Part shown: piece by piece, positions 14,359 through 20,940 of the stretch
Position numbering within the stretch: position 1 is the first letter of the stretch
Layout: each line of letters opens with the position of its first letter
Origin: an uncultured Nitrospirota bacterium
Lineage (GTDB): Bacteria; Nitrospinota; Nitrospinia; CAJXCL01
Length of the DNA: 32,210 bases
Direction of reading: 5' to 3'
Assembly (NCBI GenBank): GCA_913051775.1
Contig: CAJXCL010000020.1
Span: 1 to 32,210, forward strand
Notes under the pieces: generated by a model
Told to the model about the DNA's origin: nothing
Seen by the model: only the letters and a program-made list of their open reading frames with translations
Databases searched by the model: none
Position numbers and translations under genes: made by a program

Positions 14359-16422
14359 TTAAGATTCTTTCAACTTATTAATTAACTTTCTAATTGATTC
14401 AGCGGAATTTTGGTCAGGATCTAATTCTAAAGATTTTTGTAGATGATAAACTGCTTTCACAGGATAATAAAAATCCTTTCTTGCGTATAACATACCAATA
14501 TTATTATGAAATATAGGATCCTTAAGATTAAATGATAGAGCTAATAGATATTCCTTTAATGCCAAACTAGGTTTGTTTATATACGAATAAGCATTGCCAA
14601 GATTAATTAAAGTTTGTGTGTGCTTCGAGTTAAGCTTCTTTGATTTTTTATATTCTTTAATAGCCTTTTCAAAACGTCCTAATTTACTAAAAACATTTCC
14701 AATTTGAAAAAAACCTTTCCAGTCTTCTCCTGCAAGCGATAAATAGTTTTTGTATGATTCTATAGACTTATCAAACAATTCCATACTTTGATAAAGATTT
14801 CCCAGGCTAAAATAAATTTGAGATACCTGAGGAGCAAGGTTTCGCGCATAAGATAATGCTTTTTCCCCTTCGCTGAATTGACCGGATCTCATATAAACAA
14901 GACCTAAGTTATGAAATGTTTCCCATTCACCCGGATTGAGATTTATTGCCGTTGTAAATTCGCTGAGTGCTTTAGAAAGCCGGCCCTGCTTTGTGTAAAC
15001 TTTCCCAAGATTGTTATGTGAATAAAAATTGTTTGGATCAATTTTCAGGCTTTTGTTATAAGCAGCCACCGCTTTTTCTATATTTCCTATGTTGAGATAG
15101 GCATTGCCTAAATTTCCGTATTCATTTGCCTCATTTTTTTTGGACATATCCGGAATGGTATTAAACAAAAAAAATAAAATTATAAAAGTGGTTACAGAAA
15201 GAATTATTATTTTATATTTTCTAAATACGCACCAGGTGCATACCCTATCTAAAAAAACTCCGGCAAAAATCGCAAAGTATGGAACAACTGGGATTCTGAA
15301 CCTGCTAACAACATAAAATAAAACGACTGACATTGTTATTCCTATTATATAGGTATATAAAAGTCGAAATCGTTTGAAATTATTAACATTTAATAAAAAC
15401 CCCATCAAGCCGAGAGAAGAAAAAAACGCAAAATTAGAAAAAGGAGTTTTTAACAAGAATGAAAACTCCTGGAAAATATAAAAGTTGTAGTTTGAAGTAT
15501 ACTCATATGAATTGAAGAAATAATAAAACTTTCTGAGATAAAGTGTAATCATTTCTACAGGGTTGGAAATAAAGTTTTGAAAAAGTATAAAAACGACTTT
15601 CTTATAATTTAATGAAGTATCTTCAGGATGTCGAAATTCAGGCAGATACTCAGCCCCGGTATAACCGGGGTTATTCCCCATTAAAATCGTTAATATTCCG
15701 CTTGAGTCAAAAAAAACAAATTTTCCATGCACGATATAAGCCTGTATTAGTAAAGGAATAAAGAACAGTAAAACAACAAAGCTTAAGAATAGATTTATTT
15801 TTAGATTTTTTTTATCGGTGCAATAAAAAGAAACGAAAAATAATAAAGCAAAAACTAATATGACATTTGGGCGGCTTTGAATAAAGAGTGAGATAACTAA
15901 AGCCGTTATCACAATTCTTAATAAATTACTTTTTTCCTCCAGTTGAATTAAAAGATAAAGAGATAAAACACCAAGGAATGTTACAAAGGAGGCTCTTAAA
16001 AGAATTCCCTCGTACATTAATTCCGGACCGTATAAAGCATATAAAGTGGAGCTTATAAGCGCAGCACGTTCATTAAACAGTTTCGACGTTATTAAAAACA
16101 CCAGCAAAATAGTGATTGTTCCTAAAACAAATTGAATTCCCCATACCACAGGAAGATTCCTGCCTGCTAAAATATAAATAAAACCAAGAAAATATTTATA
16201 AAGGGGTGAATAACTATTATTGGCTGAGGTAGCTAAAAGATCGCCGGAAGCAAAGTTTTGAGCACCGATATCAAAGTTTATTGCGTCAGAAGTCTCATGG
16301 ATGAAGTGAAAAAAAGGATTCTCATTGAAATGGTAAAAATATAGTATCTTTATAGAAATCGAAATGAAAAAAATTAAAAATAGGTTAGTTTTTTTATTCT
16401 CACTAAAGCCAAAAATTTTCAT
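14359..16422 (-). CDS. Multi-spanning membrane glycosyltransferase (GT39/ArnT-like) with C-terminal TPR array
   Basis: The protein is about 687 residues. The first 415 or so are a polytopic membrane region with roughly ten hydrophobic segments. Early on it has SDAINFDIGAQNFASGD, where the acidic residues resemble the first periplasmic loop of PMT/ArnT-type enzymes that use polyprenyl-phosphate sugars. SRFRIPVVPYFAIFAG near 373-388 is common in this superfamily. After the last membrane helix come about seven TPRs (for example YGNLGNAYLNIGNIEKAVAA, FHNLGLVYMRSGQFSEGEKA and IGNVFSKLGRFEKAIKEY). These would lie on the outer side and could bind an acceptor protein. The start is uncertain: ATG 16422 or TTG 16470. 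The acceptor is unknown, and the glycosyltransferase role is inferred from topology and motifs. Confidence 0.75.
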   Translation of the reverse strand: MKIFGFSENKKTNLFLIFFISISIKILYFYHFNENPFFHFIHETSDAINFDIGAQNFASGDLLATSANNSYSPLYKYFLGFIYILAGRNLPVVWGIQFVLGTITILLVFLITSKLFNERAALISSTLYALYGPELMYEGILLRASFVTFLGVLSLYLLIQLEEKSNLLRIVITALVISLFIQSRPNVILVFALLFFVSFYCTDKKNLKINLFLSFVVLLFFIPLLIQAYIVHGKFVFFDSSGILTILMGNNPGYTGAEYLPEFRHPEDTSLNYKKVVFILFQNFISNPVEMITLYLRKFYYFFNSYEYTSNYNFYIFQEFSFLLKTPFSNFAFFSSLGLMGFLLNVNNFKRFRLLYTYIIGITMSVVLFYVVSRFRIPVVPYFAIFAGVFLDRVCTWCVFRKYKIIILSVTTFIILFFLFNTIPDMSKKNEANEYGNLGNAYLNIGNIEKAVAAYNKSLKIDPNNFYSHNNLGKVYTKQGRLSKALSEFTTAINLNPGEWETFHNLGLVYMRSGQFSEGEKALSYARNLAPQVSQIYFSLGNLYQSMELFDKSIESYKNYLSLAGEDWKGFFQIGNVFSKLGRFEKAIKEYKKSKKLNSKHTQTLINLGNAYSYINKPSLALKEYLLALSFNLKDPIFHNNIGMLYARKDFYYPVKAVYHLQKSLELDPDQNSAESIRKLINKLKES

Positions 16423-16561
16423 GTTTAAATATAAAAAAACACAATAACAAATAAATTTCAGGTCATCCAATCAGGATCTTATAAAAATACATTGCCTTTA
16501 GAAATTATCAAAAAGATTCTGGGGTGCCTCTACCGTTATTTTTTAATTCACTTGAAAGTGT

Positions 16562-16922: not shown

Positions 16923-19661
16923 TTAGCTAACAAAGAAACATTGGCTGGCGGGGGTTCGACAGTCCATGTCTGTTCCACGATCGAGATGATCAGCTATTTC
17001 AGCAGAGATACCCACCATACGGGCAAACAGAAAAATCAGGAAAACTATTTCACTCATTTCTTTTTGAGTAATTTCCTTGGAGGAATACTGTTTCCACATA
17101 AGTTTTAATGCGATGACTGCAATTACCGCGTCGATATTTACACAGAAAACCTTTGGAGATGCGCCAACTTCATAAAGGGACCAGACAAGTTTATGATAAA
17201 AATCTAAAAAAATATTATAAATTCCTTTGCTTTCAAACTGCTTGGAAATATAATCTTCCCGTGGGTCCAGGTTTACTTTTTTATCTTTAAAGACAGGGTG
17301 GTTTGTGCAGGGTATTTTATCATAGTTCAATATCCCTCTTGCTTTTGCCTGTGTTTTATATTCCTTATAAGCTGCGGCTACTTTATCAGCCATTTTTTTT
17401 AAGTTCACTTTATGTTTTTTATTCCCCGGTGTATCTATTTTTACTCCTTCAAGCTTTTCCAATAGAAACTGTACAGCTTCAAACCCGTTTCCACCATGAG
17501 CAAGCCCTGCATTTGTCATAAAACCGACATAAGCTAATGAAATATCATTCCTCGCGCTTACGCTCTCTTTTGCACCTTTGGAACTGATAGTTCCCGGTCC
17601 GTTTGTGATGGTTAGAGCCAGCAGGGAGTTGAACTCTGCTAATTCAGAGATTGATGGTTTACGGTTGAACAGGATTTGAAAGCACGTTTCAGTAAAGGAT
17701 TTTTTTAGCAGGTTAACGTCGCTTATAGTAGTGATACGTTTCCAGTAAATGTTATTCTCCGGTTTAATCACACTCAAGCCTACCATAGAAGCCTGAATAG
17801 AGAAGTGAACAGGCAGGTTTTCCGCTGTTTCTCTTGAAATTCGTTTACCGGATAATGCGTCCCATCCAAAACTCAGCAATATGGAGCAAATCAAAAACTC
17901 CAGCTCGCACTTTATAGATTTTTTCTTTGATTTTAAATTCCCCAATATTTTTATAGTTGTTTTGTCAATGCCGTTCTTGTTTTTAAGGCCATTTAATTCT
18001 TTGAATAGTAAAGATACAACTTCATTTTCCTTATTCTGCTTTTTTGTTCCTAAAATGCTAATAAGTTTTTTTGCCGCTCCATTTGCATCATAATTTGTGG
18101 CATTGACATCGGATTCCACATTTTCAGCAAATGATGAAATGAGCTTACTGGTTATGTCCTTAAAGGTCTTGAACTTTGCGTTATTTCCTAAAAGAGCGAT
18201 CACGGAAGCGAGGTAGGCATTTGGTGTACAGTTATTATCTTTTCCTAGAGTAACTACAGGCAGTAAGTTTGAGTTTAAAGCTATGAAATAATTTAAAATA
18301 ATATTAAGCAATTTTTGCTGTTCTTTCTTTAATGTGGTTTTTGTCAGGGCAAAAAAGATATTTGCTTCAAAAGAATACCTGGTCAAATCAAGTATAGAAC
18401 GCCCATGCAGCTCAGTAATTTGTGTCTTCCTGTCCATTTTACTGGCACCGCTTTTGTTTCTCATTGAATCCCTGAGATAGTTGGCACCGATTTGTCTATT
18501 AACAACTTCTATTTCATCACAATAAGGCTTTATAGCTTTTACAACAGGAATTGAAAGCTTTTTAGGAAGTTTTAAGCCTACATCATTTGCAAACCAGGGT
18601 TTTAGAGAAAGATCGCCAATCGGTTGAAAATCTGGAGAAATCCCATGTTTACGCATAACCAGTTTCAATGCTTCAGGAATATATTGAATGCTGGTAACCC
18701 TTATTCCTTTTTTCGAGACCTTTGCTTTATCTGGATTGTATGCCTCCATGCCAAAGTAACTATCAAACCATTCTTCTTTCACGATAGCATCATCGCCGGA
18801 ACCTCCTATTGCCCCAGCGTGACCGCAGGCTCGTGTGATGTCTTTCTTCCACCTGCCGGTAATACAGGCAACAATCGGTTTTGTGAATTTGAATTTTTTT
18901 TCTCGAATCCAGTCCAATGCCTGTTTTTCATAATAGCCGCCTGGTTCTATATAAAGCACAACAGCCTTGGTACGCGGATCATTCTCAGCACAATATAAAA
19001 ATTCGGGCAATGCGAAATGGACATAAATATCTTTACCTGAGCTAACAACAGTAGTGAGCCCGAATCCGGCAGTTTTCAAATATTCGGATATAGTTGTACA
19101 GAAATTTCCAGAATTACTGTGGATTGCGATAGAACCTTTTTTCAAGCTTTCCGCGGGATGGCTCCCTCCTAAAGCGCCTCCAACACGCACCCTGTCCCAG
19201 GCATTAGCTATTCCGAGAGAGTTAGCTCCTACAACATCGACTTTTTCATGTTGGCAAAGCGCCCTGACCATTCTAGAGTCTTTGACAGATATTTTTTCAG
19301 TAATGATTACTATAGTTTTTAAACTTTTATTATTATCCAGCAGCTCCGCCACTGCGAAATAAACGGCAGTAGGAGGCAGGTATATAACCCCGGTATCAAA
19401 ATTATAGTTCTTACAAACTTCCTTGACACCTCCAAAGACAGGAATAGTACCTAATTTAGTTTCGAGTTGTCCCGGCCGACCGTATTGCACTCCGGCAACA
19501 ATATTGCCACCGCTATATTCGTGCGAAATAGGAGATACTTTAGAGCTTTCTCCACCTAAAATATTCATTACGCATACACGGGTATTCTTATTGACAAGCT
19601 GTTTCAAAGAATCAATGCCAACGTAATAGTCAAAGGGGTTTTTATTGTTATTTCCGCTCAT
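16923..19661 (-). CDS. aclA: ATP-citrate lyase, large (AclA-type) subunit with extended citrate-synthase-like region
   Basis: Together with AclB this enzyme cleaves citrate with ATP and CoA to acetyl-CoA and oxaloacetate, the key step of the reductive TCA cycle. Residues 20-310 are a succinyl-CoA-synthetase alpha-type unit: a CoA-binding fold, then the ligase domain with phospho-histidine H281 in CGHAGAIGGSGDD. The C-terminal third (about 615-912) is a citrate-synthase homology domain. Its catalytic residues are visible as H722 (AHGG), H788 (CTNHPVF) and D844 (NIDAV). The protein is 912 residues, about 300 longer than the roughly 610-residue AclA of Chlorobium. Part of the extra length (about 412-510) resembles a second citrate-synthase N-half without catalytic His. 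It follows aclB by 16 bases. The Shine-Dalgarno AGGAG is set rather far upstream (about 13 bases). Confidence 0.88.
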   Translation of the reverse strand: MSGNNNKNPFDYYVGIDSLKQLVNKNTRVCVMNILGGESSKVSPISHEYSGGNIVAGVQYGRPGQLETKLGTIPVFGGVKEVCKNYNFDTGVIYLPPTAVYFAVAELLDNNKSLKTIVIITEKISVKDSRMVRALCQHEKVDVVGANSLGIANAWDRVRVGGALGGSHPAESLKKGSIAIHSNSGNFCTTISEYLKTAGFGLTTVVSSGKDIYVHFALPEFLYCAENDPRTKAVVLYIEPGGYYEKQALDWIREKKFKFTKPIVACITGRWKKDITRACGHAGAIGGSGDDAIVKEEWFDSYFGMEAYNPDKAKVSKKGIRVTSIQYIPEALKLVMRKHGISPDFQPIGDLSLKPWFANDVGLKLPKKLSIPVVKAIKPYCDEIEVVNRQIGANYLRDSMRNKSGASKMDRKTQITELHGRSILDLTRYSFEANIFFALTKTTLKKEQQKLLNIILNYFIALNSNLLPVVTLGKDNNCTPNAYLASVIALLGNNAKFKTFKDITSKLISSFAENVESDVNATNYDANGAAKKLISILGTKKQNKENEVVSLLFKELNGLKNKNGIDKTTIKILGNLKSKKKSIKCELEFLICSILLSFGWDALSGKRISRETAENLPVHFSIQASMVGLSVIKPENNIYWKRITTISDVNLLKKSFTETCFQILFNRKPSISELAEFNSLLALTITNGPGTISSKGAKESVSARNDISLAYVGFMTNAGLAHGGNGFEAVQFLLEKLEGVKIDTPGNKKHKVNLKKMADKVAAAYKEYKTQAKARGILNYDKIPCTNHPVFKDKKVNLDPREDYISKQFESKGIYNIFLDFYHKLVWSLYEVGASPKVFCVNIDAVIAVIALKLMWKQYSSKEITQKEMSEIVFLIFLFARMVGISAEIADHLDRGTDMDCRTPASQCFFVS

Positions 19662-19677
19662 TGAAGTATTATCTCTC

Positions 19678-20940
19678 CTATCTCTTTAGCTTTAAAAATT
19701 GTTTTTTCCCTTCCTTTGCCCACCACTTGTCTATTTCAAGGGCATAGTAAAGAGTTTGCATCATGCTGCTGTTATGAGCAAAAATGCGATAGGGTAGTCC
19801 CATCGAGTTTAAGGTATCATGGGCATAAGCCATTCCTTTAATTAGATTGGGTCCACCACGGCCAATTACAACATAACAGGGATGAACCCCATGCTCAGCC
19901 GAGTGATCTTTTAATGCGTCAAAAATCGCTTTAAATGTTACAAAAATGTCAGTATTGTTCGCTTTTCCGCCTATTACTAAAAGCACACTGGTTTGTTTTA
20001 GCCAGTACTTGTATACTATTCTTGCAATACTGTACATTTTTTCGTAAGGGGGATTTCCGCCGAAATCACTAGAAATAGAGGTGCGTTCGGCAAGAATTTC
20101 AGTTGCAGCGCTGTTTGCGCCGCCACCGAACATAAATGGTGTGATGGTTCCTTTAGGATTAATTTCTACTACATCACTTTGTCCCTGGTAAGTTCTCAAT
20201 GTATTAATCTCTGCCTCGAAATCAGTAACTTCGGTGTCAAATATTTCCTGCGGAAAGCCAAGTCGTTTAAATGCGGGATTGTCTTGATCAAATGAAGCTT
20301 TAATATCACAGGCTACAGGTATAGGCCTCTTACCCAACTTACTCATTCTAATTGGATTTAACTCTAAAGTTGTAAGTCCATAATTATTATAAAGTTCCCA
20401 CAATTTCGGAAGTTGCTGAACCAGGGGGCTAATACAATTTTTTGGACATCCCAACTCAACTAAAGTGTCATTAATATGAAATGCCTTTATTCCGGTAATC
20501 GGGTCGAAATCAACCGTTTTTTTCTTATCTTCCGGTAATTCCTCTATATCCACGCCACCGAAGGGTGTTATTGTAAAGGTAGGTCTTCTATGGATAGTGG
20601 AAGCCGTTATATTGAAATAAACTTCCACATCAGATGGAATAAATTCTTCAAAAGTTACACCATTTGCATGAACAATCTGGTTGTTATTTCGGTGCCTGGC
20701 AAAAAAAAGTTCTCTTTTGGCATCGAGGGCATCAGAAACGTGATCCACTATCCTTACCAGGCCGGCTTTCCCTTTTTTTCCGATGCCGCCCATAAAACAG
20801 GGTTTTATGACAATTTTCCCTCTTTTTGCGATCAGGTTCTTAATTTCTTCAACTGACGCCTCTTCATCCAATACAGCAGTCACAGGGAACTCGACCAAAT
20901 CTAATAATTTTTTTCCAAACTTTAAGCCTGTTAATTGCAT
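19678..20940 (-). CDS. aclB: ATP-citrate lyase, small (AclB-type) subunit: ATP-grasp plus citrate-binding domain
   Basis: This subunit phosphorylates the partner's active histidine using ATP and binds citrate. At 420 residues it matches the AclB class. The N-terminal ATP-grasp domain resembles succinyl-CoA synthetase beta (IVIKPCFMGGIGKKGKAGLV near 47-66, LTTLELNPIRM near 207-217). From about 265 the citrate-binding domain shows TPFMFGGGANSAATEI, VLLVIGGKANNTDI and the typical RGGPNLIKGM near 370-379. The ATG at 20940 is supported by CAGGATA upstream and by a promoter at 20963-20971. That promoter lies inside the 20-codon N-terminal extension of the frame and so rules the extension out. It is the first gene of the operon with aclA. 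Confidence 0.92.
   Translation of the reverse strand: MQLTGLKFGKKLLDLVEFPVTAVLDEEASVEEIKNLIAKRGKIVIKPCFMGGIGKKGKAGLVRIVDHVSDALDAKRELFFARHRNNNQIVHANGVTFEEFIPSDVEVYFNITASTIHRRPTFTITPFGGVDIEELPEDKKKTVDFDPITGIKAFHINDTLVELGCPKNCISPLVQQLPKLWELYNNYGLTTLELNPIRMSKLGKRPIPVACDIKASFDQDNPAFKRLGFPQEIFDTEVTDFEAEINTLRTYQGQSDVVEINPKGTITPFMFGGGANSAATEILAERTSISSDFGGNPPYEKMYSIARIVYKYWLKQTSVLLVIGGKANNTDIFVTFKAIFDALKDHSAEHGVHPCYVVIGRGGPNLIKGMAYAHDTLNSMGLPYRIFAHNSSMMQTLYYALEIDKWWAKEGKKQFLKLKR

Follow-up and report, generated by a model that had tools for sequence, protein, structure and literature searches.

Two citrate synthase homology domains, one of them degenerate, in a divergent AclA-like protein found across bacterial phyla

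The AclA-like protein encoded in the window, by which is meant the whole 32,210-nucleotide stretch of DNA that was analysed, carries two citrate synthase homology (CSH) domains in tandem: a degenerate copy, here called lobe 1, and a second copy with intact catalytic residues, lobe 2. Profile comparison, structure prediction and fold search agree on this internal duplication, about which very little doubt remains. Proteins with this layout are found in many bacterial phyla, and in each of them one half of the cleaving core probably serves as a partner without catalytic function. Together with the gene directly upstream, the protein appears to constitute a divergent two-gene ATP-citrate lyase (ACL) in which lobe 1 is a dead structural partner, likely forming an intrachain pseudo-dimer with lobe 2, a reading to which we assign a probability of roughly 0.6. 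Full-text searches of the open-access literature turned up no account of a CSH domain duplicated in this way.

The aclA-like gene (positions 16923 to 19661, minus strand) is a single open frame that begins with ATG, is free of internal stops and ends in a stop codon at 16923-16925. Its 912-residue product exceeds the cut-offs of the Pfam Succ_CoA_lig, CoA_binding and Citrate_synt models and is arranged in the order SCS-alpha, CSH lobe 1, CSH lobe 2. The first of these, a module resembling SCS-alpha and the citryl-CoA synthetase (CCS) small subunit (residues 1-371; 18549 to 19661, minus strand), exceeds the cut-offs of PF13607, PF02629 and PF00549, as is characteristic of AclA, and has the CCS small subunit (6hxq_A) as its best PDB match (E 2.6e-34). 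The candidate phospho-His of this module is H281 in the motif GHAGA, which is invariant in the alignment of 67 sequences. Downstream lies a conserved stalk and beta-hairpin region (residues 372-416; 18414 to 18548, minus strand; predicted strands 407-409 and 416-418) that runs into lobe 1, and mean pairwise identity is 50.8% over residues 372-425 versus 27.3% for the lobe 1 core. Lobe 1 itself occupies residues 417-637 (17751 to 18413, minus strand) and lobe 2 residues 642-912 (16926 to 17738, minus strand). It is lobe 2 that accounts for the PF00285 match (30.5 bits against a cut-off of 27), the citrate synthase C-terminal match of Pfam spanning residues 652-892, and its profile match is citryl-CoA lyase (CCL; 6hxp). 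With two CSH domains in chains of 890-912 residues, the aligned proteins depart from the AclA standard of one CSH domain in about 610 residues, and no NCBIfam equivalog for ATP-citrate lyase is matched, which counts against the favoured reading.

To compare the two lobes, the window protein was aligned with 66 relatives (n = 67), and lobe 1 (372-645) and lobe 2 (640-912) were cut out as profiles. Residues 417-637 pair with 642-893 in hhalign over 218 collinear columns (probability 97.7, E 2.5e-12), at a score of 88.6 that far exceeds those of 100 column shuffles (mean 15.0, maximum 22.4), of 60 block shuffles of 18 columns (mean 28.2, maximum 41.9) and of a reversed-profile control (21.6). The pairing comprises two segments, 417-537 with 642-761 and 538-637 with 791-893; lobe 1 thus represents a whole CSH domain from which about 29 residues, corresponding to 762-790 of lobe 2 and including H788, are missing. 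In the AlphaFold2 model, helix and non-helix states of the paired residues agree at 0.82 in register and at about 0.5 when shifted by 10-12 positions. The original prediction had matched residues 412-510 to the N-half of the active lobe, citing ELHGRSILDLTRYSFEANIF and TPNAYLASVIALLG, which lie within lobe 1 at residues 417-436 and 479-492, and the first hhalign segment bears this match out. The second copy that it proposed is real, although its extent was set too small: the full domain is duplicated rather than the N-half alone, and the stretch of about 100 residues thought to separate the copies is the C-half of lobe 1 and no linker. Its central idea, an internal duplication with one copy degenerate, is upheld by the profile-profile comparison, the predicted structure and the fold search alike.

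The structural predictions are in keeping with this assignment. For the full protein, AlphaFold2 gives a pLDDT of 87.2 and a pTM of 0.70, with lobe 1 mostly at 85-97 except for the stalk and the 511-530 loop; for lobe 1 alone, the values are 90.0 and 0.87. A Foldseek search of the PDB with the lobe 1 model returns the Hydrogenobacter CCL 6hxp first (E 9.9e-4, probability 1.00), ranks 1-31 are all CSH modules of CCL or ACL(Y), those of ACLY likewise reaching probability 1.00, and the later ranks are mostly citrate or methylcitrate synthases. A fold unlike that of citrate synthase, named beforehand as the outcome that would speak against the original prediction, was therefore not what emerged, and together with the hhalign match to lobe 2 the search identifies lobe 1 as having the CSH/CCL fold. 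The TM-scores are moderate (about 0.45-0.54), which counts against the favoured reading. In the fold search with the full-length protein, the SCS module dominates the matches. When lobe 1 was searched against PDB chains with a sequence-only profile, nothing meaningful was found (best E 0.21, to S100 proteins), so that its homology rests on profile-profile and fold evidence; for the same reason, automatic annotation shows a single domain. Against seven canonical CSH domains, lobe 1 scores a weak 29.7 (shuffles at most 22.9, block shuffles at most 24.6). In depth-matched sets, lobe 1 of other clades scores 30.7 against lobe 2 of seven Nitrospinia sequences and 29.5 against canonical CSH domains, values so nearly equal that tandem duplication of lobe 2 and fusion of two CSH-type domains are not separated.

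Lobe 2 retains its catalytic residues. Residues N687, H722, H788, R801, D844, R881 and R902 are invariant in all 67 sequences, and their equivalences to citrate synthase (CS) and CCL are anchored by the segments DHG, AHGG, GYGH and NVDG in the alignment with 6hxp, using the established residue numbering of CS and ACLY. H722, in the motif AHGGN (17496 to 17498, minus strand), corresponds to CS H274; H788 (17298 to 17300, minus strand), in the segment deleted from lobe 1, to CS H320 and ACLY H975; and D844 (17130 to 17132, minus strand) to CS D375 and ACLY D1026. The H274/H320/D375 triad of the citrate synthase superfamily is therefore complete, at the three positions originally predicted, and the catalytic His (H975) and Asp (D1026) expected in the C-terminal CSH domain of AclA are present as H788 and D844 throughout. 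The His expected at the position of pig CS H238 and human ACLY H900 is lacking: alignment with the DHG of CCL places N687 there (17601 to 17603, minus strand), Asn in every sequence. This residue replaces a His of ACLY that contacts CoA and citrate, which counts against the favoured reading; in the class of the window organism, ACL-like chains that are canonical in other respects carry Asn at the H900 position as well. ACLY residues H900, D1026 and R1065 are named in earlier work (PMC10115795).

In lobe 1, by comparison, the position of H722 is taken by K, A, Q or R, as anticipated in the description of a degenerate copy without the catalytic His, that of R801 by V, F or L, that of D844 by a mixture of E, D and other residues, and that of R881 by mixed residues, while H788 has no partner at all. 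None of these five residues is conserved in lobe 1 across the 67 sequences, and the catalytic triad is accordingly absent. The structural residues W600/W856 and P444/P669 are largely kept in both lobes.

CS and CCL work as dimeric or tetrameric enzymes, and the simplest role for a fused dead copy is therefore that of an internal partner by which the CSH interface is made complete. By homology, AclB and the SCS module would phosphorylate citrate via H281 and form citryl-CoA, which lobe 2 would then cleave. Lobe 1, having kept the fold and lost the catalytic residues together with the H788 segment, would take the place of a second CSH subunit in an intrachain pseudo-dimer, and an alpha2beta2 particle would supply the four-lobe core that the ordinary A4B4 enzyme builds from four chains. 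Such a role as structural pseudo-subunit is the one we favour for lobe 1, by a modest degree; the fast drift of its core (mean pairwise identity 27%, versus 56% for lobe 2) fits a structural role and also weak constraint, and to that extent counts against it. The original prediction suggested a scaffold or a regulatory site, either of which would be plausible. Conceivably, lobe 1 could instead be an allosteric site, tuning the enzyme through a retained ability to bind citrate, CoA or acetyl-CoA, as dead enzyme domains often turn regulatory. For human ACLY, it has been argued that the function of the CSH domain is allosteric and not catalytic (PMC10115795). For lobe 1 we consider this unlikely, as it conserves none of the residues with which lobe 2 contacts ligands, and conservation in the region peaks in the stalk and hairpin rather than in a pocket.

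Directly upstream of aclA, after a gap of 16 nucleotides, is the aclB-like gene (19678 to 20940, minus strand; probable ATG start at 20940, mechanical open reading frame to 21000). It encodes the ATP-grasp and citrate-binding subunit expected as the partner of AclA (PF16114, 60.6 bits against a cut-off of 26.8; PF08442, 57.4 bits), and its best PDB matches are the CCS large subunit and ACL subunit A. Both subunits are closer to Hydrogenobacter citryl-CoA synthetase than to solved ACLs, which counts against the favoured reading. Among the 106 relatives having an aclB match, 104 have it on the same strand and close upstream of aclA; in the four relatives without a match, the contig extends only a little beyond aclA on one side or both. 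On the other side of the window gene, a 703-residue protein (14359-16470, minus strand) combines a mannosyltransferase-like membrane domain (PMT_2) with C-terminal TPR repeats. The window AclB is the sole PF16114 match in its genome (2.05 Mb, 96% complete), which also encodes two ordinary citrate synthases, 2-oxoacid:ferredoxin oxidoreductases, a succinyl-CoA synthetase adjoining a 2-oxoacid:acceptor oxidoreductase, and a POR-type cluster. With this set of genes, a reversible TCA cycle is possible.

The AclAB pair can with good confidence be predicted to have ATP-citrate lyase activity. Were the complex a ligase/lyase acting on some other acid with a CoA thioester, this would account for the invariant replacement of His by Asn at 687 and for the low similarity to validated ACLs, likewise remarked upon for Nitrospina gracilis (PMC3578206). 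Such a function seems improbable, however, given the citrate-binding Pfam domain of AclB and the occurrence of the same replacement in the otherwise canonical ACL-like chains of the class. Nitrospinota with such a divergent ACL are, moreover, held to fix CO2 via the reverse TCA cycle, and N. gracilis is reported to have yielded neither CCS nor CCL (PMC3578206).

Scanning 84,980 species genomes yielded 523 stretches that encode relatives, the best 80 of which were inspected. These 80 derive from Ignavibacteriota, Bacteroidota, Calditrichota, Acidobacteriota (Geothrix), Spirochaetota, Planctomycetota, Krumholzibacteriota, KSB1, SAR324/Lambdaproteobacteria, Thermodesulfobacteriota, Myxococcota, Rokuibacteriota, Nitrospirota and Nitrospinota, according to labels that come from both MAGs and isolates and that, for MAGs, are not always reliable. 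Full-length two-lobe proteins are distributed patchily over about ten or more phyla, and the cultured Geothrix oryzisoli (L042) is among the holders of the gene pair. In the class of the window organism, 58 of 60 genomes have some match to the window protein and about 40 a full-length two-lobe copy; 16 of 61 genomes are positive in the Geothrix family and 9 of 57 in the Melioribacter-type family, every match there being full length. A reading of lobe 1 as a relic or spacer that is tolerated and has no specific job, as its low core identity relative to lobe 2 might suggest, is improbable: lobe 1 measures 260-274 residues in every aligned member, its W, P and PN motifs are conserved, and no complete one-lobe form was seen among the full-length members of the family in any genome searched. 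The notion of a single continuous CSH domain with a long insertion, the other outcome named beforehand as speaking against the original prediction, has no point in its favour and can be dismissed, since there are two complete, separately aligning sets of helices, the hhalign score stands clear of the shuffles, and lobe 1 folds alone and matches CCL in Foldseek.

Other forms of the enzyme occur in the same class. Two genomes (G003 and G006) encode canonical single-CSH AclA of about 610 residues, and G003 holds both this form (C98, L144) and a two-lobe AclA of about 900 residues (C28, L004). Three further genomes (G011, G017 and G019) have single-chain ACL-like open reading frames of about 1024-1028 residues (L145, L147 and L148), with AclB-like and then AclA-like portions in one frame, as in animal ACLY, and with DNGP instead of the DHGP that holds ACLY H900; L146 and L149 are apparently contig-cut copies of the same. 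One-lobe and two-lobe forms therefore coexist in the class.

The window AclA shares 55% identity with Ignavibacteria-type and Spirochaetia-type proteins and about 46% with those of its own class, and its place in the tree is outside the Nitrospinia clade, beside Spirochaetia, SAR324 and Lambdaproteobacteria sequences (SH-aLRT 98). The likely source of this pattern is horizontal transfer or differential loss. Nitrospinia-type lobe 2 sequences bear a 7-residue insertion (SADGPEQPDRV) in the interval between NGPGTIS and AHGG (alignment A1, columns 711-717), which maps between window residues 703 and 704; neither the window copy nor the inspected non-Nitrospinia sequences have it. Some Melioribacteraceae MAGs have two full-length two-lobe aclA copies, as in one with L054 (JALSNL010000132.1) and L055 (JALSNL010000152.1) and in G158. 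Melioribacter roseus has been published as lacking ACL (PMC3534657); MAGs so named carry the gene, yet it is present in just the 9 of 57 family genomes, and no conflict with that report is claimed.

The reverse TCA cycle has ATP-citrate lyase as its marker enzyme, and the architecture of the CSH domain is central to accounts of CS, CCL and ACL evolution. A widespread, duplicated and half-dead CSH domain offers a natural experiment on the purpose of the CSH oligomer, which is debated for human ACLY. Two-lobe AclA scores below the curated ACL models and has a patchy distribution in phyla with few reports of ACL; carbon-fixation surveys may therefore miss it. It could be, and we advance this tentatively, at slightly worse than even odds, that a multi-phylum class of ACLs consists of built-in pseudo-dimers, smaller alpha2beta2 enzymes with half the active sites, and that some organisms thought to lack ATP-citrate lyase have an unrecognised copy.

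Comparisons can be drawn with systems already known. In Chlorobium-type AclA and ACLY-B (6hxj_B, 6hxi_B), as in the window protein, an SCS-alpha portion with a phospho-His precedes the CSH domain and the ATP-grasp and citrate-binding partner is encoded next door. Those proteins have one CSH domain in about 610-630 residues, whereas the window protein has two in about 900; the SCS portions are only distantly similar, the equivalent of H900 is Asn, and the CCL-like AHGG stands in place of RFGG. Among solved structures, the CCS and CCL of Hydrogenobacter (6hxq, 6hxp) are the nearest to the two subunits and the two lobes alike, and AHGG is common to lobe 2 and CCL. In Hydrogenobacter, however, synthetase and lyase are separate proteins, whereas the window protein fuses the synthetase alpha portion to the lyase and has the lyase domain twice. 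The predicted ACL of Nitrospina gracilis very probably belongs to the same family, to which a two-lobe protein from a Nitrospina MAG (L109) can be assigned; the relevant passages of its description note "very low similarities" to known ACLs and make no mention of a duplicated domain (PMC3578206), and later work calls the Nitrospina enzyme simply ACL (PMC8026999). With citrate synthase, lobe 2 shares the fold and the H/H/D triad, but in the citrate synthase homodimer the two identical subunits are both active, while the window protein unites an active and a dead domain in one chain.
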